Assembly: GCA_900317025.1 (NCBI GenBank)
Contig: ONFG01000025.1
Coordinates: forward strand, 1-34,563
Source: an uncultured Eubacteriales bacterium
GTDB taxonomy: Bacteria > Bacillota > Clostridia > Oscillospirales > Acutalibacteraceae
Length of the DNA stretch: 34,563 nucleotides
Direction: 5' to 3'
The position numbers were made by a program, and so were the translations under genes. Of this stretch, positions 6,777 through 27,732 are shown one piece after another. Below the pieces are notes generated by a model. It did not search any database. It was given only the letters and a program-made list of their open reading frames with translations, and had not been told where the DNA came from. Position 1 is the first letter of the stretch. Each line of letters starts with the position of its first letter.

Positions 6777-8616
6777 ATGAACGAACCATTTTTCAGGATC
6801 GCCGCCGCAAGCTTAAAGCTGAAGGTTGCAGATCCGTCATACAATGCCGAAGAGATATTGAAGGTCGTAAAGAAAGCGAAGGCACCTGTTTTTCAACTCC
6901 GCCCTGCTGAACGCGGCAGAAGCTGCACTGAAAAGGATACTCCTTGAAACAAAGGATATCGATATGACGATCATTCTCGGAATGCCCGTCGCGCTCGGCA
7001 GCAGCCTTTACAACTGCGCTGTGGTGATAAACAAAGGCGTGATCGTTGGAGCCGCTGCGAAGACGTATATAGCCAATTATCATGAATTCTACGAAAAGCG
7101 GTGGTTCGCTCCCGCACCGAAGGATAACAGGATCGTGACCTCCCTTGCAGATCAGCAGGTCGTTATGGGGAACAATCTGTTCGATCTCGGCGGCGGCGCT
7201 GTGCTCGGAATAGAGATCTGCGAAGACTTGTGGGCTCCCGTGCCGCCCGGCAGCGAGCTTGCTCTCTGCGGGGCAAACGTGATCTGCAATCTTTCGGCAA
7301 GCGACGAGTACGTTTCAAAGGCGGAATACCGCGAATCGCTGGTCGCTAACCAGTCGGCACGCTGCATCTGCGCCTACGCCTACGCCGGAGCTTCCGTTTT
7401 TGAAAGTACAACCGATCTCGTCTTTTCCGGCGCGACGATCATCGCCGAAAACGGAGCCGTCTGCGCTAAGGGGGAGCGTTTCAGCCGTGAAAGCGTTCTC
7501 ACGATATTTGACGCCGATATCGAAAAGCTCAATTCGCTTCGCCGCGAGAATATCACCTTCGGCGACTGCTCTGCGGGACATGAGCGCACAATGCACAAAA
7601 GTCTGACAGAAAACGAAGAAAACGATCTTACTTACAGATATATCGACCCGCACCCGTTTGTGCCGTCGGACAAAGACAGCCGCGCGGAGCGCTGCCGCGA
7701 GATACTCTCGATACAGGCGAGCGGCCTTGCAAAGCGCATCGAGCACGTCGGCGTAAAGGGCTGCGTTATAGGCATAAGCGGCGGTCTCGACTCGACGCTT
7801 GCGCTGCTTGTCGCAGTTCGCGCGATGAAGCTGCTGGGCAAGCCTGTCAGCGACATCATCGGCGTTACGATGCCGGGCTTCGGTACTACTGACAGGACGT
7901 ACACAAACGCGCTCGAACTTATGCGCGAGCTTGGCGTGACGATCCGTGAGATCAGCATAAAAGAGGCGTGCCTGCTGCACATGAGCGACATTGGTCACGA
8001 CCCCTCGATAAAGGACATCACATACGAAAACACCCAGGCGCGGGAACGCACACAGGTGCTATTTGACCTCGCGAACAAGGAAAACTGCCTGCTCGTCGGA
8101 ACGGGAGACCTTTCGGAGCTTGCAATGGGTTGGTGTACATACAACGGAGACCACATGAGTATGTACGGAGTAAACGCAAGCGTACCGAAAACGCTCGTTA
8201 AGTATATCGTCGCGTATGAAGCGTCTATCGGCAGCGAAAAGGTCGGTGCAACGCTTATGGATATTCTCGACACGCCCGTCTCACCCGAGCTGCTGCCGCC
8301 CGACGAAAACGGCAGGATCGCTCAGAAGACGGAGGACAACATCGGCCCCTACGAGCTGCACGATTTCTTCCTCTACCACTTCGTCCGCTTCGGCTCATCG
8401 AAGGAAAAGCTGAAGCGCATGGCGCTCAAGGCGTTCGACGGCGTTTACAATGAAGAGGTCATCGACAAGTGGCTTACCGTGTTTATCCGCCGCTTCTTCA
8501 TCAGCCAGTTCAAGAGGAGCTGTATTCCCGACTCTCCGAAGGTCGGTTCCGTATCGTTAAGCCCCCGAGGCGACTGGCGTATGCCCTCCGACGCATCATT
8601 CAACGCATTCATATAG
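6777..8616 (+). pseudogene. nadE: NAD+ synthetase gene with internal deletion and frameshift in the glutaminase domain
   Basis: Glutamine-dependent NAD+ synthetase amidates nicotinic acid adenine dinucleotide. The normal start (ATG 6777, GGAG 8 nt upstream) reads MNEPFFRIAAASLKLKVADP as expected, but near 6878-6886 roughly 60 nt, not a multiple of three, are missing compared with the family. The lost part covers the strand carrying the FPEL motif, whose Glu belongs to the glutaminase Glu-Lys-Cys triad. Frame 1 then resumes as LFFNSALLNAAEAALKRIL. From ATG 6964 an intact 550-codon frame continues. It keeps the Lys (AAKTYIANYHEFYE) and Cys (EICEDLWAP) regions and the complete synthetase domain with P-loop GISGGLDST. 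AAAGGA sits 5 nt before ATG 6964, so an ammonia-dependent synthetase could still be made from there. A sequencing or assembly error cannot be excluded. Confidence 0.85.
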
Positions 8617-10594: not shown

Positions 10595-11005
10595 TTGAAC
10601 AACTATACGAGCATGAAAAAAACAACCTCCTCCGCCCTGCCTGCTCTGCTGCTCGGCTCTGCGGCAGGGGCTTTGGCAAGCTCGGCGCTGCTTTGCGCCG
10701 CGGCACTGATCTGTGTAAAGCTCGGCAGCCCGCCCGTATCTGCCGCGCCGCTCATCACGACCGTTATCGGGGCAGTGGGCGCATTTCTCGCGGGCTACAT
10801 CGCCGTCAGGATCTTCGGCAGCCGCGGGCTTCTGATAGGCGCTCTGGCGGGGCTTTTGCTTTTTGGCGCGGTGCTGATCTCCGGCTCTGCCGCCGGCGAG
10901 GCATCGCTCTCCCCTATGGCTGTAAAATGCGCTGTTTTTACGGTCTGCGGCGCATTCGGCGGCGTACTGCGGGTAAATAAGCGCGTCAAGGTAAAACGTA
11001 TATAA
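10595..11005 (+). CDS. Small four-helix membrane protein, YrzE/TIGR04086 family
   Basis: 136-residue integral membrane protein of unknown function. Four hydrophobic segments are visible (about 13-40, 49-73, 76-97 and 106-125), ending in a basic tail (VNKRVKVKRI). Length, four-helix pattern and Gly/Ala-rich helices fit the Firmicutes YrzE/TIGR04086 family. The start is a TTG at 10595 with GAGGTG about 7 nt upstream; the first ATG at 10613 lacks a ribosome site. It is a monocistronic unit between two terminators. I do not recognise a biochemical role. Confidence 0.75.
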   Translation: MNNYTSMKKTTSSALPALLLGSAAGALASSALLCAAALICVKLGSPPVSAAPLITTVIGAVGAFLAGYIAVRIFGSRGLLIGALAGLLLFGAVLISGSAAGEASLSPMAVKCAVFTVCGAFGGVLRVNKRVKVKRI

Positions 11006-11011
11006 AAAAAG

Positions 11012-11048
11012 AAGGACCCGAAGGCTTGTATGCTTCGGATCCTTTTTA
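11012..11048. terminator. Bidirectional terminator between the small membrane protein gene and rfbB
   Basis: The inverted repeat AAGGACCCGAAG / CTTCGGATCCTT has one mismatched pair, is preceded by an A-run and followed by a T-run, and so works for the plus-strand gene and as the end of the long minus-strand operon. Confidence 0.85.
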
Positions 11049-11066
11049 TTATTTCGGCGCAAAGTC

Positions 11067-12119
11067 TTACGACTGAGCGTACATTCTGTTGTAGTAGGAA
11101 AGGTAGTCGCCGGAGATGATCTTGTTCATCCAATCCTGATGAGCGAGGAACCACTCGATCGTTTCCGCGATGCCCTTCTCAAAGGTGTAAGAGGGCGCCC
11201 AGCCAAGTTCGCTTGTGATCTTAGTGTTGTCGATAGCGTAGCGGCGGTCGTGACCGGGACGATCCTTTACATAAGTAATGAGATCCTCGGATTTGCCCAT
11301 CGTTGAGATGATGAGCTTAACGATCTCGACGTTAGCCTTCTCGTTGTTGCCGCCTACGTTGTAGACCTCGCCGATCCTGCCCTTTTCGAGGACGGTCGCG
11401 ATAGCGCTGCAGTGATCCTTTACGTGGAGCCAATCGCGGATCTGCATACCGTCGCCGTAAACAGGGAGCGACTTGTCGTTCATGCAGTTGTTGATCATAA
11501 GAGGGATAAGCTTCTCGGGGAACTGGTACGGACCGTAGTTGTTCGAGCAGCGTGTGATAACGACGGGGAGCCCGAACGTATTGTTGTATGCGCGGACGAG
11601 CATATCTGCGCTTGCCTTGGAGACGGAGTACGGAGAGTTAGGTGAAAGCGGAGTTGTCTCTGTGAACATACCGGTCTTGCCGAGAGCGCCGTAAACCTCG
11701 TCTGTTGAAACCTGGAGGTATCTTACGCCCTCTTTGTACTCTCTCGAATACTTATCGTCGGGAGCGAGGTTCCAGTGGCGCTTTGCAGCGTCGAGAAGCA
11801 CCTGTGTACCGATAACGTTGGTCGTGAGAAAAATCTCAGGCTCGACGATGCTTCTGTCAACGTGGGATTCAGCCGCAAAATTGACTACCGTGTCGATGTC
11901 GTAATCGTTAAAGATCTGCTCAACAAGCTTCTTATCGCGGATATCGCCCTTTACGAAGCGGTAATTCTTGTTGTCCTTGATGTCCTCGAGGTTTTCAAGG
12001 TTGCCGGCGTAGGTGAGAGCGTCGAGGTTGACGATCAGCGCGTCGGAGTTCTCAAGCATATAGTGAACGAAATTCGAGCCGATAAAGCCGGCGCCGCCTG
12101 TTACCAAAACATTCTTCAT
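11067..12119 (-). CDS. rfbB: dTDP-glucose 4,6-dehydratase
   Basis: NAD-dependent short-chain dehydratase converting dTDP-glucose to dTDP-4-keto-6-deoxyglucose. It has 350 residues. The nucleotide-binding motif GGAGFIGS is at about residues 8-15, the dehydratase signature STDEVYG follows at mid-protein, and the catalytic YSVSK lies further on. It is the last gene of the operon that starts at wecE, 21 nt after rfbA. There are no rfbC (epimerase) or rfbD (reductase) genes in the window, which suggests that the keto-sugar is drawn off by the WecE-type aminotransferase upstream rather than being made only into dTDP-rhamnose. A complete rhamnose set elsewhere in the genome is possible. Confidence 0.97.
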   Translation of the reverse strand: MKNVLVTGGAGFIGSNFVHYMLENSDALIVNLDALTYAGNLENLEDIKDNKNYRFVKGDIRDKKLVEQIFNDYDIDTVVNFAAESHVDRSIVEPEIFLTTNVIGTQVLLDAAKRHWNLAPDDKYSREYKEGVRYLQVSTDEVYGALGKTGMFTETTPLSPNSPYSVSKASADMLVRAYNNTFGLPVVITRCSNNYGPYQFPEKLIPLMINNCMNDKSLPVYGDGMQIRDWLHVKDHCSAIATVLEKGRIGEVYNVGGNNEKANVEIVKLIISTMGKSEDLITYVKDRPGHDRRYAIDNTKITSELGWAPSYTFEKGIAETIEWFLAHQDWMNKIISGDYLSYYNRMYAQS

Positions 12120-12140
12120 TTTATTTACTCCTTATTTCTT

Positions 12141-13013
12141 TTAGATGATCTCTTCGGGAAGCGAGAGAAGATACTGACCGTAATCGGTCATTGAAAGCTC
12201 GTTGCCGATCTTGATAAGCTGATCGGTGGTGATAAAGCCGCGTCTCCACGCGATCTCTTCGGGACAGCAAACGTAGAAGCCCTGTCTCGACTGAACGTTC
12301 TCAACGAACTGAGAAGCCTTCATCATGCCCGAGGGCGTTCCCGTGTCGAGCCAAGCCATTCCTCTGCCGAGAAGCGAGACCTTGAGCTGCCCCTTCTCGA
12401 GGTAGGCGTTATTGACCGCTGTGATCTCAAGCTCACCTCTTGCGGAAGGCTCGATCGTCTTGGCGATCTCGACTACCTGGTTGTCGTAGAAGTAAAGACC
12501 GGGTACAGCGAAGTTTGACTTCGGCTTCTTCGGCTTCTCTTCGATAGAGATAACGTTGTTGTCCTTGTCGAATTCAACGATACCAAAATCCTTGGGGTTC
12601 TTTACGGCATAACCGAAGATAGCGGCGCCGTTGAGCTCCGCCTTTGTCTTTTCGAGGATATCGGTAAAATACTGACCGAAGAACACGTTATCGCCAAGAA
12701 TAAGACAAACGGAGTCGTCGCCGATGAAATCCTCGCCGATGATGAACGCTTCGGCAAGTCCCTTCGGCTCCTGCTGAACGGCGTAGCTGATAGAAAGGCC
12801 GAGCTTACTGCCGTCTTCAAACAGCCTCTCATACATCGGGATATCGGCAGGGGTCGAGATTATAAGTATCTCCCTTATGCCGGCAAGCATCAGCACCGAT
12901 AGCGGATAATAGATAAGCGGTTTGTCATAGATCGGAAGGAGCTGCTTTGACACGACCTTTGTCATAGGATAAAGACGAGTGCCTTTGCCTCCTGCCAGAA
13001 TAATACCTTTCAT
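12141..13013 (-). CDS. rfbA: Glucose-1-phosphate thymidylyltransferase
   Basis: Makes dTDP-glucose from glucose-1-phosphate and dTTP, the first step of the dTDP-sugar branch. The 290-residue length is typical. The nucleotidyltransferase signature GGKGTRLYP is at residues 8-16, [10 protein letters not shown] follows, and the dinucleotide-metal motif [10 protein letters not shown] lies near residue 110. The ATG overlaps the stop of the preceding GT-C gene by 4 nt (ATGA), so translation is probably coupled. Its first 18 codons are part of a 99-bp block repeated exactly at 16330-16428. Confidence 0.97.
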
Positions 13014-13058
13014 AGCTGCAATACATCCTCTCTGTTAAAAAATATCTCAGCGCCGTCA
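12960..13058 (-). repeat. 99-bp direct repeat, copy 1 (native GT-C/rfbA junction)
   Basis: Identical base for base to 16330-16428. Read on the minus strand it holds the last 15 codons and stop of the GT-C gene 13010-14497 and the first 18 codons of rfbA. Both genes run through it intact, so this is the source copy. Confidence 0.97.
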
Positions 13059-14497
13059 AAATAGAGCTTAAACAAAACAAGCAGAAACGGAAGGAATACG
13101 AGCGAATTGATCATCAGCAGACCGTGGTCGTACTTCTCAAACTCTGCCTTCTCCCCCATATCGAATTTATGCTTGAATCTCGGGTAGTTGAGAACCAGGA
13201 TCAATACGATCGCCACTATAACTGCTCCGGAGCAAGCATTTATCAAGAACTTGCTGATATAACCGTTTGGATCCATTCCGAGAACGAAATCCCTGAAGGT
13301 ATTGTCTTTATGCTGCGAGAACTCCCTTGGCTTGATGAATTTCTCCAAAAAAGAGTCGACTGTATATCTGCCCGACAAAGACTCCTTTACTCCGGCAAAT
13401 ATCTCCATGGAATGGAAGAACTGGTAGCAAAACATTAAAACAAGATCCAGTCTGAACAAATGAGTATTTATTACTATCAACACCGGAAGATACGGCATTA
13501 TCATAATGCCGCTGTAGTAATCGGCTTTACCGAGAGAACACATCATCATGAATACGCCTGCGGGGATATAGATCAGGAACTTGTTCCTTTCGTCATCCGA
13601 CTCCGGCTTTGTAAAGCAGAAGATAAAGCAAAATGCCAAAACTCCAAAAACGAAAAGCGACGACTTTCCGTACGGAGCTTCGATACCGACGTTAAACAGA
13701 TCGTAGAAAAGCTTAAACGGCGGATTCGCCGCAACAGACTCCTTGTAAAGCGGAAGGAAGCGTCCGATGAGGTGGTCGAGCCCCAAAAGCGAAAACGATA
13801 TAATGTATTGGAGCAGCGCTATAAGCAGATTCTTTTCAACAAGCAGAAGTATCGGCAGGAAAGCAAAAGCAAATAATGGCTTCACTGCGATAGAGAGCGC
13901 CGCAAAGAGTATCGAAAGCTTTCTCTTTCCCTTCATCATAAAGTATACGCACAATGCTGCATATACGGCTGCAAAGACGTCGATCTGCCCGACTACGCCA
14001 ACGCATATCAGGCAGGCACTTGACCCGACTGTCATTATAGAAGCCCATGCGGAACGTTCCTTATCCTTTGTGATGAGGAAGCTCATCTTGTATGCAAGAA
14101 AAGCAAGAACTAGATTGCACAGCTCCAGCCCCAACTTTGACCATGCCAGCAATCCCGCGCTGTAAGCTATATCCTTACCTGTCGTGTGCTGGATGATCCA
14201 GATAGGAAGATTCCAAAGCCATAACGGCAGGATAGCAAAAATGTCAAGCCCCATATACTGCGGAGCAACGAGATGCTCATTCTTTGCAGTGTACTCGTAA
14301 AACGAAAATGGCTTGCCTTCGGCGATCACATCCCAAAGGTTCGTGCTCCATATCGTTACCGTTTTGATGTCAATGTGTGAAAAAGATAGCATCGTAAGGA
14401 GAACAACGGCTGCGACAGCCAGCCATTCCCATAAATATATCTTTGATGAATAGTACTTTTTTAAAAAGAGTTTTTGATTTCTGCTGTTTGAAGCCAT
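13010..14497 (-). CDS. GT-C-like multispanning membrane glycosyltransferase, paralogue C
   Basis: 495-residue integral membrane protein with about ten or more hydrophobic helices. Near the N-terminus, after the first helix, is a loop [12 protein letters not shown] with Asp57, in the position where GT-C enzymes carry a catalytic acid. In mid-protein [19 protein letters not shown] followed by a conserved lysine ([14 protein letters not shown]) resembles GT39/GT87-type transferases that use polyprenyl-phosphate sugars on the outer face. The C-terminus ends with a conserved [11 protein letters not shown] helix region. It is one of three complete tandem paralogues with a fourth stump. AAGGGGT precedes the ATG; the stop overlaps rfbA. 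The glycosyltransferase role is inferred from fold pattern and operon context; the acceptor is unknown. A polysaccharide-modifying membrane protein without transferase activity remains possible. Confidence 0.8.
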
Positions 14498-14553
14498 ATT
14501 TTCTGTTACCCCTTCCTTTTGTATGCATGGTTTCTAGTTCTAGAGACTATTAC

Positions 14554-16017
14554 TCAATGAGGTGTGTAAAAATAAATCGAATACATTATAATAAGGAACG
14601 GGAGATAAACTAATGAATTCAGCATCAGCAATCCGTGGTCATAATTCTTCTCTGAACCGTTTTCTTCGATCATCAGCTTACGGGATAACCTTGGATGATT
14701 TATAATAAAGAGAGCCACGGCAGCTATCGTCATAACAGCACATACAATGCTGAGAAGGAATAACCTCAGTTTTCCGTCCTCCATTGAGTTAGCCAGAATT
14801 GTACGCACACTTGCCTCGGGTCGATTGGCATACTCGCTCTGAGGGAATATCTTTGAGACAAACGTACCTCCTACGTAGTAAGCGGAAACCGTTTTTGCAC
14901 TGCCCATCGCTCTGGAAGCTCCATGGGCAAGCTGGAACAAGAAGGATAAAAGCAAGTTTAGTCTCAGCCTGCTTTTATCTGAGATGACAAGCACCGAAAA
15001 GTACGGCATTATCGTTAGGCTTCTGTAAAACTCGGTTTTGGAGAACAGACTGGTCATAACAAAAACCCCTGCCGCGATATAAACAAGGTACTTATACCTC
15101 TCCTCCTTTGAAGAGGGCTTTGTCATATAACTCATAAAGCAAAGCAGCATCAGCCCGATCATAAAAGCGGAGGCTTTACCGTAAGGCGCATCTATTCCAA
15201 CGTCAAAAATATTTACAAGGACTTCTTTTGTCGGTCCTACCGTCATGGATTCCTTGTACAAAGGAAAGACGTTGCCGAGAAGCCTGTTAAAGCCCATCAG
15301 CGACATCGCGCCTATGCAGTCGGCCGCTGCTATGAGAATGTTTTTCTCGACCAGCAGAATAAGCGGGAGAAAGGCAAATATAAAGAAGGGCTTAACGGCA
15401 ACGGAACACGCCGCAAAAATAATAGACAGCTTTGTTTTGCCCTTCATCATGAAGTAAACGGACAAAGCTCCGTATAGGATAAAGAAAACATCGTTCTGAC
15501 CGGCAACTCCGACTCCAATCGCGGCAACTGCCGAACCGATCGTGATGATCGCAGACCAGAGCGAGCGCTGTTTATCGCCGGTGACAAGAAGCGCTATCTT
15601 GTATCCGACGTATGCTATCGCACAATTGCAGAATTCCAGACCCAGCTTTGACCAAAGGAGCATTCCCGGGCTTTGAGCTATGTCCTTATCAAAGAACCTC
15701 TGCACTATCCATATGGGGAAGTTCCATATTGAAAGAGGAATAATCGCAAACAGGTCGCAGCCCATGTATTGATGAACCAGATGGTGGTAGTTCTGCGACG
15801 TATATACATAGAAGTTCTGAAACTGACCATCAGCGATCACGTCCCAGAGATTTATGCTCCATATCGTAAGACTTACCGTATCCATGTAAAGCGAGGATAT
15901 GAGCGAAATCAACACAACGACGCCGACCGCGGCCCATTCCCACCAATATATTCTCGGAGAGTAGAATATAGCACGCAGCTTACTTTTCTGATCGTTTCTA
16001 TCCAAATTTTTCTTCAT
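14554..16017 (-). CDS. GT-C-like multispanning membrane glycosyltransferase, paralogue B
   Basis: 487-residue multispanning membrane protein, paralogous along its whole length to the genes on both sides. It has the same landmarks: the N-terminal sequence YSPRIYWWEWAAV, loop WSINLWDVIADG (Asp59), GQNDVFFILYGALSVYFMMK, the lysine in SVAVKPFFIFAFLP, and the C-terminal YDHGLLMLNSLVYLPF. AGGGGAT lies 6 nt before the ATG. It is separated from paralogue C by 56 nt, well within operon spacing. Divergence from C and A in the soluble loops suggests that each copy may recognise a different acceptor or linkage (inference). Its upstream side is the disrupted 16018-16461 region. Confidence 0.8.
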   Translation of the reverse strand: MKKNLDRNDQKSKLRAIFYSPRIYWWEWAAVGVVVLISLISSLYMDTVSLTIWSINLWDVIADGQFQNFYVYTSQNYHHLVHQYMGCDLFAIIPLSIWNFPIWIVQRFFDKDIAQSPGMLLWSKLGLEFCNCAIAYVGYKIALLVTGDKQRSLWSAIITIGSAVAAIGVGVAGQNDVFFILYGALSVYFMMKGKTKLSIIFAACSVAVKPFFIFAFLPLILLVEKNILIAAADCIGAMSLMGFNRLLGNVFPLYKESMTVGPTKEVLVNIFDVGIDAPYGKASAFMIGLMLLCFMSYMTKPSSKEERYKYLVYIAAGVFVMTSLFSKTEFYRSLTIMPYFSVLVISDKSRLRLNLLLSFLFQLAHGASRAMGSAKTVSAYYVGGTFVSKIFPQSEYANRPEASVRTILANSMEDGKLRLFLLSIVCAVMTIAAVALFIINHPRLSRKLMIEENGSEKNYDHGLLMLNSLVYLPFLIIMYSIYFYTPH

Positions 16018-16091
16018 AAAAAGATCCCCTGCTTTAACCTAAAAGCCTTCAAAGACGCCACAGCCCGAAACAGGTATTGCGCCGTCCTGCA

Positions 16092-16329
16092 TCACCAAGT
16101 CAGACTAGACATCTCTGCTATTTTCGGCAAATAAAAATACAATCCGTACATCATCATCAAGAATGGAACATAGACAATCAGATTAAGAAGCAGAAGACCA
16201 TGGTCAAACTTCTTAAATACGCCCTTCTTTTCCAGATCAAACTCGTGTTTGAATCTTGGGTAATTGATCACCAAAAGGCTGAATATCGCCACCGTAACTA
16301 CCGCGGCCGTAAGGTGTATAAACATCGAA
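16092..16329 (-). pseudogene. C-terminal stump of a fourth GT-C-like paralogue (D)
   Basis: Only the last ~77 residues remain (MFIHLTAAVVTVAIF..., then NYPRFKHEFD, FDHGLLLLNLIVY and MMMYGLYFYLP). They align with the C-termini of paralogues A, B and C but are not identical to any. The frame ends upstream exactly where the 99-bp repeat copy 2 begins, and the rfbA fragment in that repeat is out of frame with the stump. The missing N-terminal ~400 codons were replaced or deleted. No ribosome site precedes the stump, so it is unlikely to be translated usefully. Confidence 0.85.
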
Positions 16330-16428
16330 TGTCATAGGATAAAGACGAGTGCCTTTGCCTCCTGCCAGAATAATACCTTTCATAGCTGCAATACATCCTC
16401 TCTGTTAAAAAATATCTCAGCGCCGTCA
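16330..16428 (-). repeat. 99-bp direct repeat, copy 2 (rearrangement scar)
   Basis: Exact copy of 12960-13058, 3370 bp away in the same orientation. It carries the 3' end of paralogue C and the first 18 codons of rfbA, here orphaned: on one side it abuts the stump of paralogue D, on the other the 33-nt tail after paralogue A. Identity breaks sharply at both ends. Confidence 0.97.
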
Positions 16429-16461
16429 TATCACAAGCTATTAACGCGTTTAAAAGCTTAT

Positions 16462-17937
16462 TTAGCTCGCTGCAGGGAAAAACGCTGACAAATGGAAATA
16501 CATGATATACATCGCCAAAAGGAACGGTAAAAATGAGCATCCGTTCAGAAGCAGAAGACCATGGTCGTACTTTTCAAATATGCCGAGTCTTTCCATATCA
16601 AATTTATGCTTATATCTCGGAAAATTGAGAACAAGGATCAATATAACGGCTGCTATCGATATTGCCGTAGTAAGATACAAAATAAAACCCAGGAAATTGT
16701 GCTTTTCATCAATAGCGTTTACGACTGCTCTTATGTTCGCCGCTTTTCTTTCGTTCACCATATCGTCAGGTTGGAAGAATAAAGATACGACCGATCCTCT
16801 CATAAAGTACGCCGACACTGTATTCCAATTGCCGAGAGCATTGCACATCGTAACAAAGAATTGAAAAACAAAAGACAGGAACAGGTTAAACCTGAGCATA
16901 GAAGATCTCAATACTACAAGTACAGAAAGGAACGGCATAGTGAGAATGAATCTGTAGAATTCTGTTTTCGAGAATACGGACATTAACAGATATACTGCCA
17001 CAACAATGTATAGATAGTATTCGTTCCTCTCTTGGTCAGATTTAGGATTCGTCATATAGCTTATCAGATAGATCACTAATAGTCCTATCAAAAACAGCGA
17101 TGCCTGACCGTAGAAGGAGTCGATACCTACGCCAAAAAGATTGACCAAAACAGTTACAGACGGTCCGCTTGACATAGACTCATTGTAAAGAGGGAACATC
17201 TGCCCTATCATTCGGTTTAATCCCATCAAAGAAAAAGAAAGTATAAACTCCAAAGCCGCAATAAAGATGTTCTTCTGCTTTAAAAGAATAAGCGGCAGAT
17301 ACGCGAAAACAAAGAATGGTTTGGCAGCAACAGACATGGCAGCAAAAAGGACCGACCTCTTCTTTTGTCCTTTCATCATGCTGTATACGCTGAGTGCCGT
17401 ATAAACAATAACAAAGACATCAGTTTGTCCGGCTATGCCGATACCTAACGCACCTCCACAAAAGCTCATTGTCAAAAAGGAAGCCCAGAGCGAACGATTT
17501 TTGTCTTTGGTTAAAAGCATAGCCATTTTATAAGCCAAATAAGCGACCAAACCGTTACAAGCCTCAAGACCAAGCTTTGACCATGCAATGAGGATACCGC
17601 TTTCCGGGATCTCTTTTCCAAAAAAACGCTGCGCGATCCAGATGGGAATATTCCAAATTGATAGAGGAATGATTGTAAATAAGTCACATCCCATTTTGTC
17701 ATGTGGAACATGATGGATGTTTTGAGTAGTAAACTTATAAAAATCCGTCAACTTGCCATCAATGATGACATCCCATAGATTCGTACTCCAAACTGTAATA
17801 CTTATGGTATCCTGATATACTACCGATAAAATAGTAATGAGACAAATAGCAACAACTGTCGCCCATTCCCACCAGTAGATTTTCGGCGAATAGTAACCCT
17901 TTAAAAATTTTTTCCATTTTCTGCTTGTTGTAGCCAT
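16462..17937 (-). CDS. GT-C-like multispanning membrane glycosyltransferase, paralogue A
   Basis: 491-residue multispanning membrane protein, the first and apparently most AT-rich of the three complete paralogues. Landmarks are YYSPKIYWWEWATV at the N-terminus, loop [12 protein letters not shown] (Asp57), GQTDVFVIVYTALSVYSMMK, the lysine in SVAAKPFFVFAYLP and YDHGLLLLNGCSFLPF near the end. AAAGGGG lies 5 nt before the ATG. It starts 21 nt after the second small flippase gene, which places it directly after the predicted lipid-linked sugar synthesis and flipping genes. It is the best candidate for the original transferase of the operon (inference). The function is predicted from topology and context, not from a characterised close relative. 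Confidence 0.8.
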   Translation of the reverse strand: MATTSRKWKKFLKGYYSPKIYWWEWATVVAICLITILSVVYQDTISITVWSTNLWDVIIDGKLTDFYKFTTQNIHHVPHDKMGCDLFTIIPLSIWNIPIWIAQRFFGKEIPESGILIAWSKLGLEACNGLVAYLAYKMAMLLTKDKNRSLWASFLTMSFCGGALGIGIAGQTDVFVIVYTALSVYSMMKGQKKRSVLFAAMSVAAKPFFVFAYLPLILLKQKNIFIAALEFILSFSLMGLNRMIGQMFPLYNESMSSGPSVTVLVNLFGVGIDSFYGQASLFLIGLLVIYLISYMTNPKSDQERNEYYLYIVVAVYLLMSVFSKTEFYRFILTMPFLSVLVVLRSSMLRFNLFLSFVFQFFVTMCNALGNWNTVSAYFMRGSVVSLFFQPDDMVNERKAANIRAVVNAIDEKHNFLGFILYLTTAISIAAVILILVLNFPRYKHKFDMERLGIFEKYDHGLLLLNGCSFLPFLLAMYIMYFHLSAFFPAAS

Positions 17938-17958
17938 TTTTACCCCTTTCTGTTCAAA

Positions 17959-18315
17959 TCACACTCTTCCACCGAACGAAACTACCAGCACACCGGCAAT
18001 GATGAGCACCATGCCGATGATCTGCTTTTTCGTCAGCCTTTCCTTGAGGATAAAATAACTCAGCACGGCAACGAAAACGTAGCCCGCCGATTCAAGAACG
18101 GGACCGAGCGAGAGCGGTACGTACTTATACGCAAAGACCGTTATGATCGTAGACGCAAAAAACATCGCGTAGGCGGTTATCACACGGACGTTGAGATATT
18201 CCTTGATAAAGCTTTTGTGTTCCTCGTTTGCGCTCGTTTTGAGAACGACCTGAGAGATCGAGGAAAGCAAAACGGAGCCGAGGAATATAAAGATGAATAA
18301 TACCGAGCGGTTAAT
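17959..18315 (-). CDS. EamA/SMR-type small membrane protein, ArnF-like flippase subunit
   Basis: Four-helix membrane protein of the drug/metabolite-transporter fold. The frame has no ATG or GTG at its head. The only conventional start is TTG at 18270 (103 residues), which has no ribosome site and cuts off half of the first helix (IFIFLGSVLLSSISQVVLK). An ATT at 18315, overlapping the TAA stop of the preceding gene, would give 118 residues, exactly the length of its partner, with the GGTGGTGATGG stretch upstream. I use that extent. Together with the preceding gene it forms a heteromeric pair like ArnE/ArnF, which flips lipid-linked aminoarabinose. The role in flipping the polyprenyl-phosphate sugar made by the GT2 enzyme is inferred from context. 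Confidence 0.75.
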   Translation of the reverse strand: MNRSVLFIFIFLGSVLLSSISQVVLKTSANEEHKSFIKEYLNVRVITAYAMFFASTIITVFAYKYVPLSLGPVLESAGYVFVAVLSYFILKERLTKKQIIGMVLIIAGVLVVSFGGRV

Positions 18316-18667
18316 CGTCCATCACCACCAAACATACTCCGGCGATTATAATCACCGTTCCAACGATCATAAGCCACGAGATCCTCTCGTGCCACATTAT
18401 CGCGCCGATTATCATGCCCCATATCATTACCGCCGATTTGTTCGCAAACGCGACTGTAAGCGGGAGCCTTTTGAGCACCTGCTGCCACAATACGGCATAG
18501 ACCATGAGCAACACCACCACGCCGCCGTAAAGCATTATAAACTTAGGCGACAAAAACTCCTGCCCGGAGGCAAGCTTGGACATAACGCTGCTGCCCACGT
18601 AGATAAGTAGTATCACATGGAGAAAGATGAGGCTTCTGGCATTCGCCTTTTTTGAGGGTTCACTCAT
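18311..18667 (-). CDS. EamA/SMR-type small membrane protein, ArnE-like flippase subunit
   Basis: 118-residue four-helix membrane protein of the SMR/EamA fold. Visible are a first helix (about 11-32), a Glu in a short loop (MWHERISW) that matches the conserved position before the last helix in this family, and a last helix ending VCLVVMDD. Its ATG overlaps the TGA of the GT2 gene by 4 nt, and its own stop overlaps the proposed start of the next small protein, so the three are translationally linked. The pairing of two small DMT proteins right behind an ArnC/GtrB-like enzyme is the arrangement of lipid-linked sugar flippases. A multidrug exporter is a less likely alternative here. Confidence 0.8.
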   Translation of the reverse strand: MSEPSKKANARSLIFLHVILLIYVGSSVMSKLASGQEFLSPKFIMLYGGVVVLLMVYAVLWQQVLKRLPLTVAFANKSAVMIWGMIIGAIMWHERISWLMIVGTVIIIAGVCLVVMDD

Positions 18668-19632
18668 TGTTCCTTCTCTCCTTTTTTGCCGGAAGACGCA
18701 TCATATGACACCTTTCTGCGCACCACGTACTGCGGCGCTTCGTTGAGGCTGATATATATCCTGCCTACGTACTCGCCGATAATGCCGAGCATTATCATCA
18801 TAACGCCGCCGATAAACAGGAACGCTGCCATCATCGAACTGTAGCCGAGCGGCGTTGCGGGATTGATAAGCTTGTTTATGATTATATAAATTCCGTAGAT
18901 AAAGCCGACTACCGAGCTGGTGCAGCCGATAAACGTCGCTGCGCGCAGCGGCTTGACCGAGAACGAAGTGAAGCCGTTGACCCAGAGCGACAAGAGCTTG
19001 TTCAGGCTGTAGCCCGACTCACCCTCGAGACGGTCTCTGTGCTCTATCGTTACGTTCTTAATGTTCTTTGTTGCTCTGAGGAGCAGACCCGACATATACG
19101 GGTATGGATTCCTGTAGCGCACGACCTCGTCTGCTACGTATCTCTTACAGGCAAAGTAGCTCATGATCTTAAGCTCCTTCGGCTTGTCGATAAGGTAACG
19201 CGCCATCAAATCATTGATGTAGCTGCCGAAATTTCTGAAAAGCGAATGCTTCTTGCTCTCGTAGCGCGCGAACACAACGTCGCACTCGTCGTCGAGGCAG
19301 TCGATCAGCTTGAACATCTGATTCGCCGGGGTCTGTCCGTCGTCATCGAGACATACGACGATATCGCCGGTTATATTGTGGAATCCGGCGAGAATAGCGG
19401 AATGCTGACCGAAGTTTCTCGCAAGCTCTACGCCGGTTATGTGCTTGTCGTTTTTTGCTAGCTCCTCTATTACGGAAAAAACGTTATCCGGAGAATGGTC
19501 GCTGACTAGAATTATCTCGTAATCGTAGCGGTCTTCTCTCGTCTTAACGGTCGCCTTGATCTCGTCAACAACGCTTGAGATCGTGTGCTCGGAGCCGTAG
19601 CAGGGGATCACAAAAGAAAGCTTTGTCTTCAT
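18664..19632 (-). CDS. Polyprenyl-phosphate glycosyltransferase, GT2 family, ArnC/GtrB/DPM1-like
   Basis: Transfers a sugar from its nucleotide carrier to undecaprenyl phosphate on the inner face of the membrane. The 322-residue protein has an N-terminal GT-A domain (FVIPCYGSE at 7-15, LVSDHSPDN, then the metal-binding DDDGQ at 96-100) and two C-terminal transmembrane hairpin helices (about 235-300), the classic ArnC/GtrB layout. The sequence after the helices is short and basic. It lies 56 nt after the GNAT gene and overlaps the flippase subunit. In this operon the likely donor is the dTDP-4-acylamino sugar made by RfbA, RfbB, WecE and GNAT (inference). The ribosome site is weak (AGGTG 12 nt before the ATG). 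Confidence 0.9.
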   Translation of the reverse strand: MKTKLSFVIPCYGSEHTISSVVDEIKATVKTREDRYDYEIILVSDHSPDNVFSVIEELAKNDKHITGVELARNFGQHSAILAGFHNITGDIVVCLDDDGQTPANQMFKLIDCLDDECDVVFARYESKKHSLFRNFGSYINDLMARYLIDKPKELKIMSYFACKRYVADEVVRYRNPYPYMSGLLLRATKNIKNVTIEHRDRLEGESGYSLNKLLSLWVNGFTSFSVKPLRAATFIGCTSSVVGFIYGIYIIINKLINPATPLGYSSMMAAFLFIGGVMMIMLGIIGEYVGRIYISLNEAPQYVVRRKVSYDASSGKKGEKEQ

Positions 19633-19688
19633 AGAAAAAATTTCACCTATCCTCCGGACTTGTTGGTAAAACGTCTGCTCTCATCCGA

Positions 19689-20210
19689 TCAGTCCTCATA
19701 GTCTTCTTTTAGTATCGACATGAATACGACGTCTTCTTTAACGCCGTCAACGATAACATCCTGACGGAACAGGCCCTCGTAAACGAAGCCTGCGCTCTTG
19801 TAAGAGTTGATTGCGCGCTCGTTGCGGGCAAAAACTCTGAGGAAGATCCTGTTCAGGTCAAGCTCCTCAAAGCCGTACTTCAGGATAAGCTTTGCCGCTG
19901 CGCCGCCTATTCCGTGACCTCTTGCGCACTCCTCGCCGATGAAGATCCCGAACTCCGCCTTCCGGTAGTCATGGTCGATATCGCGAAGGTATACAGAGCC
20001 GACATCGCGTCCAAGCTCGTCGGAATGAATAATGAACTGCGCTACCTCGCCCGTCTCTACCTTCGTTCTGATCCAGTTGAGATGATCCTCTCTTGTCAGT
20101 GGACGGCGGTAAATGAAGTTGATGTTAACGTCGGGGCTGTTGCGCCATTTTACGATATTGTCGGTGTCTTCGACCGTCATTTTTCTGATGCTTACGCTGT
20201 TATTGCTCAT
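19689..20210 (-). CDS. GNAT-family N-acetyltransferase, likely acting on the 4-amino sugar
   Basis: 173-residue RimJ/RimL-type acetyltransferase. The order of GNAT motifs is visible: KMTVEDTDNIVKWRNS at the start, the acetyl-CoA-binding loop ECARGHGIGGAAAKLILKY at about 95-113, then LRVFARNERAINSYKSAGF. AAGGAG lies 7 nt before the ATG. The position between the WecE-type aminotransferase and the polyprenyl-phosphate transferase suggests that it N-acetylates dTDP-4-amino-4,6-dideoxyhexose, the job of WecD in enterobacteria, although WecD itself is longer and not closely similar to the eye. A protein acetyltransferase role cannot be excluded from sequence alone. Confidence 0.85.
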   Translation of the reverse strand: MSNNSVSIRKMTVEDTDNIVKWRNSPDVNINFIYRRPLTREDHLNWIRTKVETGEVAQFIIHSDELGRDVGSVYLRDIDHDYRKAEFGIFIGEECARGHGIGGAAAKLILKYGFEELDLNRIFLRVFARNERAINSYKSAGFVYEGLFRQDVIVDGVKEDVVFMSILKEDYED

Positions 20211-20276
20211 AATAATCTCCTTTTTCCGGGTCGATCCTGAAAGAGCCGTTTTTTCCGGGCATACGAAAACGAGCCT

Positions 20277-20306
20277 CCGCTCAAGGGGCAGCCCCTATAA
20301 GAGCGG
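20277..20306 (-). promoter_or_regulatory. Strong hairpin in the wecE-acetyltransferase gap
   Basis: CCGCTC/GAGCGG (20277-20282 with 20301-20306) encloses AGGGGC/GCCCCT (20284-20289 with 20291-20296). On the minus strand it is followed by GAGGCTCGTTTTCG. It could be a leaky intra-operon terminator or an mRNA-stability hairpin; the T-run is too short for a confident terminator call. Confidence 0.5.
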
Positions 20307-20326
20307 CGACACGCTTTTGTCATATA

Positions 20327-21457
20327 TTACTTTCCAAAGAAGCTCTTGACCTTCTCAACAACGTAGTCCGTCTCATTTTCCGTAAGACCGTAGTACATCG
20401 GGAGACGGAGCAGGCGCTCGCTTTCCTTTGTAGTGTACTTGTCCTCGCCGGAGAATCTGCCGAATTTGAGACCTGCCTCGGAGGAGTGGAGCGGAACGTA
20501 ATGGAATACTGCTGCTACGCCGTTGTCCTTGAGGTAAGAGATCAGATCTGTACGCTGCTCGATATCGCGCACCTTTAGGTAGAACATATGCGCGTTATGG
20601 CTGCACTCTGCAGGAATGATCGGGCGCTCGGCGAAACCAGCCGCCTCAAGCGATGCAAAGCCCTCATAATATCTTCCCCATGAGGCGAGTCTGTTTTCGT
20701 TGATCTCCTCAGCCTTCTCGAGCTGTGCGGAAAGGAATGCGGCGTTGATGTCGCTCGGGAGATAGGAAGAACCCATGTCTACCCATGTGTACTTATCGAC
20801 CTGCCCTCTGAGGAAACGGCTGCGGTTCGTACCCTTTTCGCGGACGATCTCGGAACGCTCGAGCATATTGGGGTTGTTTACGAGAACAGCGCCGCCCTCG
20901 CCCATGCTGTAGTTCTTCGTCTCGTGGAAGGAGTAGCAGCCGAGATCGCCGATCGAACCGAGCGCTCTGCCCTTGTAATAAGCCATAACGCCCTGTGCCG
21001 CGTCTTCAACAACGAGCAGACCGTGCTTCTTTGCGATTTCGAGGATCGTATCCATCTCACAGCCTACACCGGCATAATGAACAGGCACGATCGCCTTCGT
21101 CTTCGGAGTGATAGCCGCTTCGATGAGCTTTTCATCTATATTGTTCGTGTCGGGGCGGATATCTACGAAAACGATCGTAGCGCCTCTGAGCACGAAAGCG
21201 TTTGCTGTCGAAACGAACGTGTAAGAAGGCATGATGACCTCGTCTCCCGGCTTAATATCGGCAAGCAGAGAAGCCATTTCAAGAGCGTGAGTACAGGAGG
21301 TAGTAAGGAGCACCTTGCTGCTCTGCGTCTGCTTTTCAAGCATCTCATGACACTTCTTTGTGAAGGCGCCGTCGCCGCAGATCTTGCCGTTGGCGATAGC
21401 CTGCTGCATATACTCCAGTTCTTTGCCGACAAAGGGTGGTTTATTAAAGGGAATCAT
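20327..21457 (-). CDS. wecE: dTDP-4-amino-4,6-dideoxygalactose transaminase, WecE type
   Basis: PLP-dependent DegT/DnrJ/EryC1 aminotransferase. From the ATG at 21457 it is 376 residues, the same length as enterobacterial WecE, and I recognise long stretches of that protein: MIPFNKPP at the start, PGDEVIMPSYTFVSTANAFV, VPVHYAGVGCEMDTI, VVEDAAQGVM (Asp152 binds the PLP ring nitrogen), FHETKNYS with Lys181 as Schiff-base lysine, REKGTNRS, and TTKESERLLRLP. It converts dTDP-4-keto-6-deoxyglucose to dTDP-4-amino-4,6-dideoxygalactose (dTDP-Fuc4N). The frame is open 22 codons further upstream, but that part is the promoter region, and GGAGA precedes ATG 21457 by about 9 nt. It is the first gene of the operon that ends with rfbB. 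Confidence 0.93.
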   Translation of the reverse strand: MIPFNKPPFVGKELEYMQQAIANGKICGDGAFTKKCHEMLEKQTQSSKVLLTTSCTHALEMASLLADIKPGDEVIMPSYTFVSTANAFVLRGATIVFVDIRPDTNNIDEKLIEAAITPKTKAIVPVHYAGVGCEMDTILEIAKKHGLLVVEDAAQGVMAYYKGRALGSIGDLGCYSFHETKNYSMGEGGAVLVNNPNMLERSEIVREKGTNRSRFLRGQVDKYTWVDMGSSYLPSDINAAFLSAQLEKAEEINENRLASWGRYYEGFASLEAAGFAERPIIPAECSHNAHMFYLKVRDIEQRTDLISYLKDNGVAAVFHYVPLHSSEAGLKFGRFSGEDKYTTKESERLLRLPMYYGLTENETDYVVEKVKSFFGK

Positions 21458-21494: not shown

Positions 21495-21523
21495 ATTTTA
21501 GCATATGAATTTTTGTTTGTCAA
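21495..21523 (-). promoter_or_regulatory. Consensus sigma-A promoter of the amino-sugar operon
   Basis: On the minus strand a perfect TTGACA (21518-21523) and TAAAAT (21495-21500) are 17 bp apart, giving a leader of about 30 nt before wecE. This is the best-matching minus-strand promoter in the window. Confidence 0.8.
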
Positions 21524-23027: not shown

Positions 23028-23063
23028 AAAAAACAGATGTAAACTCTTGTTTACATCTGTTTT
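23028..23063 (-). terminator. Terminator of the Stealth-TagF-acyltransferase operon
   Basis: A perfect 15-bp stem (23030-23044 with 23049-23063) around a 4-nt loop, followed on the minus strand by a T-run. It lies about 175 nt after the acyltransferase stop, beyond the inserted repeat at 23071-23223. Confidence 0.8.
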
Positions 23064-23238: not shown

Positions 23239-24300
23239 TTATCTTTTCTTTTGTGATCTCTTTTTATTATCAATAAACTTCATCACATTATCCATAACCA
23301 AAATGCAGACAACAGAGGAGAGTATAACAACAGCGACATAAAATATGGCGTGCGAAGCATAGCCATACTTCCAGTCGATCTGCGAAATGTACTGGCGAAC
23401 GATGATCTGCATAAGATATATCGGAAAGCTTATCTTTCCCAAAAAGTAAACAAAGCCGTTATTCAAAAAGGATAGTGATGCTTTGTCGCTGAACGAAACA
23501 GTGACCGCACAAGCAATGAGAATAACTGCAACATACGGTGAAATGTCACTGAATCTGTTGTCGGCATATAATAGAAGGAAAGCATATACCGCTGTCTCAA
23601 AAGCAATCAGCGCATAACTATTTATCTTTTCAAGCACACCGCTGTTACATATCACATAACAGAAACAGCCCAGACATATTTCGGCAAAAGCCCTGAGCAG
23701 ACCGGCATAAGCAAAGCCTGTATCCGAGAAAACGAGATCAAGATTCCCCTCATATTTTCTCCACAGCCAGCCCAATACAAGCAGAGACGCCACGGGAGCT
23801 GCCAAGCGGGTAAACTTGTCTTTGTACTTTATAACTATCGGAGTTAAAATAAACATCACGATAAGCATGGCAGATATATACCACTCATGCCCGAGCGTAG
23901 AGAACTGCTTTGTAAGCCCCATCTGAATCAACAGAATTTCGGGGATCGAATTGACAACGTTCAGAAAAAGATCTCTGACACTCCAATCTTTGATAAAAAA
24001 CAAGCATCCAAAGGTCACTGCCACCATAAACAGATGATAAGGCATGAATGACCTATACTTTTTAACCATGAAAGCCGTACTGTCAGCGGCAAGGGTATCT
24101 TCACTGTAGCTGATGCGCGACAAAGACGCTGCAAATAAAAATCCGGACACAATAAAAAAGAACTCAACAGCCATATAGCCTCTGTTAAAAAGCTCTCTGT
24201 CATACTTTACGGAATTGCCAAAATGGTACAATATAACTACAATCGAAAAGATGAACTTAAGCAGATCCACTTTTCCGTTACGGACCTTCTTTTTTTCCAT
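23239..24300 (-). CDS. Membrane acyltransferase, acyltransferase-3 (OafA-like) family
   Basis: 353-residue integral membrane protein with about ten hydrophobic helices. The family hallmarks at the N-terminus are present: KVDLLKFIFSIVVILYHF, with the His of the catalytic region, then GYMAVEFFFIVSGFLFA. Such enzymes O-acetylate or otherwise acylate cell-surface sugars. It is the last gene of the operon with the TagF-like fusion (13 nt gap) and Stealth, so it probably acylates the phosphopolymer those enzymes make (inference). The lysine- and arginine-rich C-terminus (NKKRSQKKR) fits a cytoplasmic end. Confidence 0.9.
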   Translation of the reverse strand: MEKKKVRNGKVDLLKFIFSIVVILYHFGNSVKYDRELFNRGYMAVEFFFIVSGFLFAASLSRISYSEDTLAADSTAFMVKKYRSFMPYHLFMVAVTFGCLFFIKDWSVRDLFLNVVNSIPEILLIQMGLTKQFSTLGHEWYISAMLIVMFILTPIVIKYKDKFTRLAAPVASLLVLGWLWRKYEGNLDLVFSDTGFAYAGLLRAFAEICLGCFCYVICNSGVLEKINSYALIAFETAVYAFLLLYADNRFSDISPYVAVILIACAVTVSFSDKASLSFLNNGFVYFLGKISFPIYLMQIIVRQYISQIDWKYGYASHAIFYVAVVILSSVVCILVMDNVMKFIDNKKRSQKKR

Positions 24301-24313
24301 GACTGACCTCCTT

Positions 24314-26605: not shown

Positions 26606-26665
26606 TGTATGATCCTTTCTTTTCTTCTGTTACCGAGCGGATCCTTCCGAACGGCGCTTCGTGAT

Positions 26666-27655
26666 TTATCTTTCAAAAGATGATTTTTCGGGAAGAAGAC
26701 GGTCAAAGCTTTCCAAAACCGCGTCCCTTATTTTTTCAAAATCAAAAGTCTTTTCTATATCGTTCAAGCATATCAGCCTGTGCCTTCCCGTTTCAACGGC
26801 TCTGCAGGCTTCGAGGTAATTCTCTTCCTTCAAATGGTAGCAGTTGCCGATCGAGACGCTCCTTGGAATGGCTTTGCCGTCTGCGAGCTGCCAGTATTTC
26901 ATGAGCCATTGGTTGACGTTGAGCTTCGATCTGAAGCGGCAGGAGCACGTTGCGTCGAGCACGTCGTATTCTTTTTCCCACACCGTTTCAAATGTGCTTT
27001 TCAAAAAGTTGCTCGACAGATGGTTGTAATACATTCCCGGGAACCACGGCCACATATTGAGCGCCGCCGTTTTGGTCACGCGCTTTATGCCGTTTGCGGG
27101 GCTGAACCATTTCGTGAAGTCCTTTTTCATGCAGACGTTCTTGTTGAAGTTGCTGTTGATAAGCTCCATGTCGTTGCCGTTGAAGGCGCCTGCACTGTCT
27201 TTGCGGAAGAATATGCAATCCATGGCGTATGTATCCATGGGGCGGCCGTCTTTGAAGAAGTCCCCGGGCTTCACGGGCGCCGTTACGAACATATCGTCGT
27301 TGAAGTAAACGAACTGCTCAGAAAGCCCCTTTATCCTGTGAAGATTAAGCTCGATCGTATGCGAATTGAAGGTCGGCAGGTACTTCTCCGGGATATAGTC
27401 GCGGTGGTTGACTATATTGAGCTTCGGGTTATCGGTATTGAGCCACTCGGGAATATGACCCCATGTGACGAAATGCACCTTGTTGACCCACGGAGCGAAT
27501 TTCTCGACGCCGCGAAACCAGAACTGGAGATTGTCCCAGTCGCGGAAGCGAACTTCCTTGTTATCGCCGGACGAGGGGTCATATTTACTTTTTTCTTCCA
27601 GCCACTTCGGGTCACTGCCGTCGACCCAGATCATGACGAAATCTATCTTTTCCAA
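26666..27655 (-). CDS. Stealth-family sugar-phosphate transferase
   Basis: Stealth proteins transfer hexose-1-phosphate to build phosphodiester-linked capsule or wall polymers. The conserved regions are in order: CR1 IDFVMIWVDGSDPKW (about residues 4-18), CR2 around FRGVEKFAPWVNKVHFVTWG and LPTFNSHTIE, with LSEQFVYFNDDMF (the acidic catalytic pair), then CR3 and CR4 further on, including NMWPWFPGMYYNHL. I choose TTG 27655, with GAGGGTG 6 nt upstream, giving 329 residues; the frame is open 29 codons further but those codons cover the leader region. It is the first gene of a three-gene operon with the TagF-like fusion and the acyltransferase. Confidence 0.9.
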   Translation of the reverse strand: MEKIDFVMIWVDGSDPKWLEEKSKYDPSSGDNKEVRFRDWDNLQFWFRGVEKFAPWVNKVHFVTWGHIPEWLNTDNPKLNIVNHRDYIPEKYLPTFNSHTIELNLHRIKGLSEQFVYFNDDMFVTAPVKPGDFFKDGRPMDTYAMDCIFFRKDSAGAFNGNDMELINSNFNKNVCMKKDFTKWFSPANGIKRVTKTAALNMWPWFPGMYYNHLSSNFLKSTFETVWEKEYDVLDATCSCRFRSKLNVNQWLMKYWQLADGKAIPRSVSIGNCYHLKEENYLEACRAVETGRHRLICLNDIEKTFDFEKIRDAVLESFDRLLPEKSSFER

Positions 27656-27732
27656 AAAACACACCCTCGCTCTCAAAGTAAGGCTCTGCGGATCCGCCTT
27701 GATCCGATACGTATATACTATTCGCTGATCAT

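Follow-up and report, generated by a model that had tools for sequence, protein, structure and literature searches.

The question raised by this locus is what a presumably Gram-positive bacterium does with a 4-amino sugar linked to deoxythymidine diphosphate (dTDP) when the genes for this sugar stand in one operon with the parts of a lipid-linked sugar transfer machine. The operon is located on contig ONFG01000025.1 (GCA_900317025.1) of an uncultured Eubacteriales bacterium of the Acutalibacteraceae, and the 34,563 nucleotides (nt) of this stretch are referred to as the window. The organism is related to Ruminococcus, placed by NCBI in the Oscillospiraceae of the Clostridia, and on the strength of this kinship the host is taken to be Gram-positive and the class in the searches below to be Clostridia. 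The source genome (G000) is a draft of 47 contigs and is 92% complete, which is the scope of all negative results given for it. Ten genes, wecE, a GNAT gene, a GT2 gene, two eamA halves, three GT-C-like genes, rfbA and rfbB, were all found co-directional on the minus strand between 21457 and 11067, as the original prediction of a single operon had stated (Table 1). It is likely that the operon makes 4-acetamido-4,6-dideoxygalactose (Fuc4NAc), loads it on undecaprenyl phosphate (Und-P), flips it outward and transfers it to surface acceptors. We infer which sugar is made, that it is N-acetylated, in what order the steps run, and that the sugar is flipped and transferred.

In the proposed pathway, RfbA and RfbB would form dTDP-4-keto-6-deoxyglucose, which WecE would aminate to dTDP-Fuc4N, and the GNAT would acetylate the 4-amino group of this product. 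The GT2, of ArnC/GtrB type, would then move the sugar onto Und-P, the two EamA halves would bring Und-P-Fuc4NAc to the outer face, and as many as three GT-C enzymes would transfer Fuc4NAc to surface acceptors. That several GT-Cs mean several acceptors is a guess.

Table 1. Features of the operon and of its flanks in the window, in the order of transcription.
Feature	Position	Strand	Description and proposed role	Basis
Promoter candidate	21495..21523	-	TTGACA-17-TAAAAT, TG ahead of second hexamer	11/12 consensus positions
wecE	20327..21457	-	dTDP-4-amino-4,6-dideoxygalactose transaminase, 376 amino acids	TIGR02379, NF008687, solved WecE
GNAT	19689..20210	-	PseH-like N-acetyltransferase, 173 amino acids; proposed 4-N-acetylation of dTDP-Fuc4N	PF13302, TIGR03585
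GT2	18664..19632	-	ArnC/GtrB type, 322 amino acids, about 2 C-terminal transmembrane helices; proposed Und-P-Fuc4NAc synthase	PF00535
EamA half 1	18311..18667	-	ArnE-like, 118 amino acids; proposed flippase subunit	PF00892, 37.9 bits, over cut-off
EamA half 2	17959..18315	-	ArnF-like, 118 amino acids, probable AUU start	PF00892, 45.6 bits (TTG-started part)
GT-C1	16462..17937	-	491 amino acids; proposed acceptor transferase	Alignment of GT-C homologs; ortholog of G019 GT-C1
Scar, part 1	16330..16428	-	99-bp exact copy of 13058-12960 (GT-C3 3' end and rfbA start)	
Scar, part 2	16092..16331	-	Remaining 3' end of a fourth GT-C	Nearest to GT-C of G016 and G020
GT-C2	14554..16017	-	487 amino acids; proposed acceptor transferase	AlphaFold2 model, Foldseek, hhalign to GT87-like set
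GT-C3	13010..14497	-	495 amino acids; proposed acceptor transferase	Alignment of GT-C homologs, tree
rfbA	12141..13013	-	Glucose-1-phosphate thymidylyltransferase	TIGR01207, 467 bits, cut-off 361
rfbB	11067..12119	-	dTDP-glucose 4,6-dehydratase	TIGR01181, 513 bits, cut-off 365
Intrinsic terminator	11005..11052	-	Hairpin and U tail 3' of rfbB	-18.6 kcal/mol, z -5.65

The RmlA/RfbB/WecE set of the Fuc4NAc branch of enterobacterial common antigen (ECA) was present, with RfbA, RfbB and WecE each over the cut-off of its family (TIGR01207, TIGR01181 and TIGR02379), in agreement with the predicted synthesis of dTDP-Fuc4N. WecE scored 653 bits with TIGR02379 (cut-off 435) and 651 bits with NF008687 (cut-off 375), and the RfbB of the operon was the sole RfbB over the cut-off in the source genome. 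Using phmmer against solved sequences, WecE had a full-length match to WecE (4piw, 561 bits over 370 amino acids; 6blg, 553 bits), and the next sequence after the WecE entries was QdtB with 176 bits. The PseC, ArnB and DesI models gave 208, 202 and 119 bits, all under their cut-offs. These scores argue against the same machine carrying another sugar, either Und-P-Qui4NAc (the 4-acetamido-4,6-dideoxyglucose form, if WecE makes the gluco isomer) or Und-P-Fuc4N with another acyl group. However, family scores do not reveal stereochemistry or acyl specificity, TIGR02379 is described as a dTDP-4-amino-4,6-dideoxy-D-glucose transaminase where NF008687 names galactose, and ATP-grasp ligases replace the GNAT in some relatives, suggesting aminoacyl groups there. 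On balance another sugar appears rather unlikely, and Fuc4NAc is the sugar assumed below.

An N-acylation gene was present in the operon as foreseen; its product was PseH-like instead of the WecD-type GNAT that had been claimed. It matched PF13302 (75.5 bits) and PseH TIGR03585 (87.9 bits, slightly under the cut-off of 93.1). A WecD-type identity was dropped because the GNAT matched 15 NCBIfam models and WecD was not among them. Among solved sequences the spermidine acetyltransferases were nearest (70 bits), and PseH gave 43 bits. A WecF-like route in the source genome was dropped as well, since the WecF family (PF07429) had no match there. In the class, the WecF family was found in 2 of 31 wecE genomes, on contigs other than those of wecE.

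The GT2 was the only glycosyltransferase family that Pfam recognized among the ten proteins. It aligned over nearly its full length with solved ArnC (9hwj, 142 bits) and with the sll0501 glycosyltransferase (5ekp, 125 bits), which we take to be GtrB, and it carries an LDDDGQTP motif. With ArnC NF007986 (167 bits, cut-off 529) and PgfS (166 bits) it stayed far under the cut-offs. From its sequence, the GT2 is predicted to be a GT-A fold synthase of C55-P-sugar with a membrane anchor, and the claimed ArnC/GtrB-like character was thus retained at the level of the Und-P-sugar-synthase type. The two small proteins claimed to be ArnE/F-like were EamA halves over the Pfam cut-off, and the pair is a candidate for a small flippase next to the GT2. 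EamA1 had no match to PDB sequences up to E 0.01.

The GT2 subfamily was defined by E ≤ 1e-60. The class-wide GT2 and wecE searches, taken as covering the same 391 genomes (genome labels recur), scored no more than the top 4-5 candidates in each genome, and the counts are therefore lower bounds. The GT2 subfamily was detected in at least 21 of the 391 genomes and wecE over its cut-off in at least 31; both were present in 19 genomes from 8 families (Fisher p ~3e-22, not corrected for relatedness). Among 60 relatives, the GT2 subfamily was found in 10, wecE in 13 and both in nine. In 17 of the 19 genomes with both, GT2 and wecE shared a contig and lay within 34 kb; in G289 and G389 they were on different contigs. 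Seen from wecE, 22 of 31 class loci had a full-length ArnC/GtrB-type GT2 within 9.5 kb; these include the source window, G249 and G324, and the GT2 of G347 scored only 43 bits. The donor genes therefore co-occur and stay linked in related genomes, where their separation had been considered beforehand. Because of this linkage, a GT2 that uses UDP-glucose only is unlikely. In a gene tree, 30 GT2-subfamily sequences (the G018 fragment was left out) separated from 20 paralogs with support 100/100; this separation is partly by construction from the E 1e-60 cut, the wecE association is not. Two of the paralogs, par25 (G039) and par28 (G033), likewise lay close to wecE (at a distance of 21 nt and, on the other strand, of 1.7 kb), therefore the wecE link with such GT2s is wider than the subfamily.

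The genes around the GT2 appeared exchangeable. An N-acylation gene adjoined 22 of the 31 GT2-subfamily genes, a GNAT in 16 cases and an ATP-grasp ligase in six, never both. The ATP-grasp neighbours were Pfam-confirmed in G448 and G569 and reached 363 bits in G044. In G516 a DegT aminotransferase adjoined the GT2, followed by a hexapeptide protein. No directly adjacent N-acylation gene on the same strand was found in G001, G289b, G032, G249, G324, G347, G426 and G539; G001 had a Pfam-confirmed ATP-grasp 1.2 kb from the GT2, and the ATP-grasp match of G289b was weak and lay on the opposite strand. Around wecE (36 loci and the source window), eight loci with a GNAT and 13 with an ATP-grasp did not overlap (4 of the 13 being weak, 100-133 bits, and a 44-bit GNAT match of G389, 5.6 kb away, being left out), and neither did 14 EamA and six GtrA loci, including a 33-bit GtrA in G551. 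Such a distribution would be expected if an amino sugar received its N-acyl group before or during lipid loading, the acyl chemistry being presumed. Known GT-C-type families also occurred near the GT2 in relatives, PMT_2 in L106 (over cut-off) and YfhO in L154. In another family (L105:3809-4927 and L106:10033-11187), ATP-grasp ligases occupied the GNAT position, with wecE on one side and the GT2 on the other. These ligases are candidates for making aminoacylated Fuc4N.

The three GT-C-like proteins matched no Pfam family at E 0.01, and no NCBIfam model was matched above its cut-off. Two acidic columns were common to all 13 GT-C homologs, one at residue 46, immediately following helix 1, and one at residue 176. 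Structure prediction was run for GT-C2. A first AlphaFold2 model from seven sequences (pLDDT 64) gave weak structural matches and was replaced by a model from 12 sequences (pLDDT 83.6, pTM 0.87). Its top Foldseek match in the PDB was ALG12 (E 3.4e-3, probability 1.00); probabilities of at least 0.96 were also reached by the best entries of EmbB, DPY19, ALG9, ALG3, PimE, ALG6 and ArnT. Among the 50 matches listed, 19 had a probability of at least 0.85; 17 of the 19 were titled glycosyltransferases, presumably all of the GT-C fold, and the other two were 9n9j_I and 8imx_U. The best plainly unrelated match among the 50 was BetP (probability 0.30). By hhalign, the GT-C profile matched a GT87-like set of six weak genome matches at 97.5%, all six having been chosen by the GT-C profile itself; of the four scanned with Pfam, two were over the GT87 cut-off and two were not, one of the latter being over the PIG-U cut-off. 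The model thus supports a GT-C fold for GT-C2, and the absence of such a fold, considered beforehand, was not seen. The close GT-C family was found in 5 of 150 family genomes (two weak) and in 5 of 22 genus genomes. In the class, 22 of 391 genomes had GT-C profile matches, strong only in the source genome and in G347, which also carries wecE and the GT2.

Several observations weigh against the proposed pathway. No Foldseek match of GT-C2 had E <0.001, the TM-scores of its GT-C matches were 0.2-0.5, and the GT-C profile had no match to PDB sequences up to E 1. The EamA halves resemble many small transporters and stayed under the curated cut-offs of ArnE and ArnF (28 bits with cut-off 92, and 26 bits with cut-off 99). 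Three of the six adjacent ATP-grasp matches were weak (G202, G422 and G461; 108-133 bits). Among 14 multi-helix neighbours in relatives, counted without GtrA, GT-C homologs and the PH-domain protein of L042, Pfam placed one PMT_2 and one YfhO over the cut-off and one each of PMT_2 and Wzy_C below it, besides two DUF6020 and one Wzx-like protein; seven had no Pfam family. In G032, wecE, the GT2 and a GT-C stood together with no GNAT or EamA beside them. The subfamily GT2 occurred with no wecE in two of the 21 class genomes (G422 and G516) and in one of the ten among the relatives (G001, 77% complete). Conversely, nine of the 31 wecE loci (G281, G289, G329, G344, G353, G372, G466, G477 and G481) lacked a complete GT2 of the ArnC/GtrB type within 9.5 kb, therefore WecE also serves other routes.

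Such loci would agree with a nucleotide sugar destined for a polymer made in the cytoplasm, as happens in ECA, the GT2, EamA and GT-C proteins carrying a different sugar such as glucose; in Enterobacterales the WecE product goes to WecF. However, wecE was present in 19 of the 21 genomes with the GT2 subfamily, N-acylation genes adjoin most of these GT2s, no WecF was found in the source genome, and the ten genes hold no second glycosyltransferase family recognized by Pfam. A cytoplasmic polymer is therefore very unlikely to be the destination of the sugar, and loading on Und-P remains the preferred reading.

The GT-C genes were the variable part of the locus. G019 carries the operon at the same chromosomal place, and the donor genes of the two species were 82-96% identical, compared with 54, 67 and 57% for GT-C1, GT-C2 and GT-C3. 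The control flanking genes were 82-98% identical, except DUF3792 (62.5%). The GT-C genes thus diverge faster than the donor genes between these two species. Reading this divergence as a mark of selection was unsupported, with the identity of the flanking DUF3792 gene also low. Each GT-C was the ortholog of its positional partner in G019 (support 96/97, 90/100 and 100/99), therefore the duplications predate the split of G000 and G019. The GC content of the GT-C genes was 0.40-0.45 versus 0.49-0.53 in the other operon genes, and the contrast was smaller in G019 (0.50-0.54 versus 0.55 in its wecE).

A comparison of gene order upheld the donor part of the operon and not a fixed GT-C part. In six same-genus loci (G000, G019, G020, G016, G012 and G021) seven donor-side genes were in constant order, that of G016 being read over two contigs, but the number of GT-Cs ranged from 0 to 3 per locus: three in G000 and G019, one in G020 and at least one in G016. 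G018 had one GT-C on another contig. No GT-C of the operon's family was found in G012 (89% complete) and G021 (99% complete). In G012 (L040, ~7900-7990) eamA2 leads at its end directly into an rfbA whose first codons are missing, and the operon of this genome may be impaired.

Part of the 444-nt gap between GT-C1 and GT-C2 was filled by the two scar parts of Table 1, and the gap is therefore not empty. The window held just two exact direct repeats of at least 30 bp, the 99-bp copy and a 65-bp tandem copy near the contig end (34192-34319). The remnant of the fourth GT-C was 65% identical to that of G016, 61% to that of G020 and 46-54% to the GT-Cs of the source genome (46-65 aligned residues). 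The stretch 16428-16092 represents either a recombination scar or an assembly join. A false join may have arisen in a draft of 47 contigs, but the remnant was nearer to GT-Cs of other species than to the source genome's own. The ends of the source contig matched no other contig of the genome.

A scar with a GT-C remnant, the loci with no GT-C found and the shortened rfbA of G012 could also mean that the operon is decaying, its GT-C part being lost or rearranged and the unit no longer working. Against this stand the open, full-length operon genes, the high identity of the donor genes to those of G019 and the three GT-C paralogs, each retained since before the G000/G019 split. Decay is accordingly a most improbable explanation, and a working operon with GT-C turnover is preferred.

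The original prediction had named the pathway Arn-like. The Arn (pmr) pathway makes 4-amino-4-deoxy-arabinose for lipid A from a UDP-pentose, with ArnA and ArnD and a formyl group that is later removed. The operon shares with it a 4-amino sugar, an ArnC-type GT2, an ArnE/F-type EamA pair and a terminal GT-C, but uses a dTDP-hexose with a proposed N-acetyl group. The GT-C profile matches GT87-like proteins, ArnT being a Foldseek match at probability 0.96. No ArnA- or ArnD-like family was found among the ten operon proteins, to which this search was limited, and the label Arn-like could not be kept. The ECA Fuc4NAc branch consists of RffG/H, WecE, WecD and WecF. RfbA, RfbB, WecE and an N-acetyltransferase are common to both; unlike in ECA, the acetyltransferase of the operon is PseH-like, and we propose that an ArnC-type GT2 instead of WecF uses the donor.

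Systems of multi-component transmembrane glycosylation are well known from Gram-positives, among them GtlA/GtcA/GtlB and CsbB/GtcA/YfhO (PMC8035078); statements on published systems refer to the accessible parts of the cited papers. SccN/SccM and SccP/SccQ are further such systems, and Streptococcus mutans has more than one GT-C, SccM and SccQ (PMC11754754). The operon resembles them in a membrane GT-A that would make C55-P-sugar, a small flippase and a GT-C acting outside. It differs in that their sugars are galactose, glucose and N-acetylglucosamine and their flippases are of the GtrA or Wzx type, where the operon has an EamA pair (PMC8035078, PMC11754754), and in holding its own nucleotide-sugar genes. 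A three-component addition of pentofuranoses is also known, with undP-sugar, a small four-helix transporter related to EmrE/ArnE and a GT-C (PMC11127046); the operon shares the undP-sugar, the ArnE-related transporter and the GT-C, but not the pentofuranose donors (PMC11127046). As for the sugar, a 2020 survey of 12,939 genomes, in its accessible part, found Fuc4NAc only in Gammaproteobacteria (PMC7725333). In Clostridium butyricum, dTDP-Fuc4N is predicted in flagellar and capsule clusters, in the accessible text without an Und-P monosaccharide step (PMC13317340, PMC12342839). A search by title and start of abstract, mostly outside subscription journals, found no publication on Und-P-Fuc4N(Ac).

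The operon, which has counterparts throughout the class, thus represents a known type of machine (GT-A, flippase and GT-C) whose sugar donor is probably new. The claim of a new system was too strong, since GT-A, flippase and GT-C together are well described in Gram-positives; the separate steps are known, but the joined wecE/GT2/EamA/GT-C combination, found again in relatives, has apparently not been described. The presence of wecE and the GT2 together in eight families suggests a second, Und-P route for Fuc4NAc in the class, with a non-orthologous acetyltransferase. A predicted donor can now be named for a GT2 subfamily, which opens a direct in vitro test, and the variable GT-C genes could determine which surface is presented to host immunity or to phages. 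The most interesting part is the modularity. At even confidence, we propose for the Clostridia a type of surface glycosylation that is modular, not yet described and based on Und-P-linked N-acyl-Fuc4N. Its conserved core would be WecE and the GT2 subfamily, combined with exchangeable N-acyl modules (GNAT for acetyl, ATP-grasp for aminoacyl, perhaps hexapeptide proteins), flippases (EamA pair or GtrA) and rapidly evolving GT-C modules that are gained and lost and set the acceptor, like an antigenic or phage-receptor locus.

The start of EamA2 was unusual. Its frame has no ATG, GTG or TTG before the TTG at 18270, which falls midway along helix 1. An in-frame ATT at 18315, within ATTAA (18315-18311), overlaps the TAA stop of EamA1 and was kept in all six same-genus loci. 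In the four loci from other families, ATG stood at this place, exactly in two and one codon earlier in two (counted from SxISQ). EamA2 probably starts at AUU 18315; AUU starts are rare, infC being an example.

The remaining gaps were 116 nt (wecE-GNAT), 56 nt (GNAT-GT2), 21 nt (EamA2-GT-C1), 56 nt (GT-C2-GT-C3) and 21 nt (rfbA-rfbB). The several 4-nt overlaps that had been described were found at GT2-EamA1 and GT-C3-rfbA, but EamA1-EamA2 overlap by 5 nt. The claimed strong promoter corresponds to the candidate ahead of wecE; its match alone is little proof, because the scan gave 26 promoter-like sites in comparison with a mean of 17.5 in shuffles. The single terminator was confirmed as a hairpin with a U tail after rfbB, with none of 200 shuffles equally stable; a simple terminator scan did not list this hairpin.

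Upstream of the operon, on the same strand (23239-27742), the window encodes a CDP-glycerol glycerophosphotransferase-like protein (763 amino acids), a Stealth-type protein and an acyltransferase-3. A teichoic-acid-like polymer made by these genes could be the acceptor of the operon sugar. For this region (24314-27742), the contig of G019 ends before it, that of G020 is too short, and the flanking genes of G012, G016 and G021 differ from those of the source window. A perfect inverted repeat with 15-bp arms at 23030-23063 (folding z -6.6) is perhaps a two-way terminator. At 3109-5124 the window encodes a protein that has a CotH kinase domain and ends in a dockerin, which points to cellulosome-type proteins.

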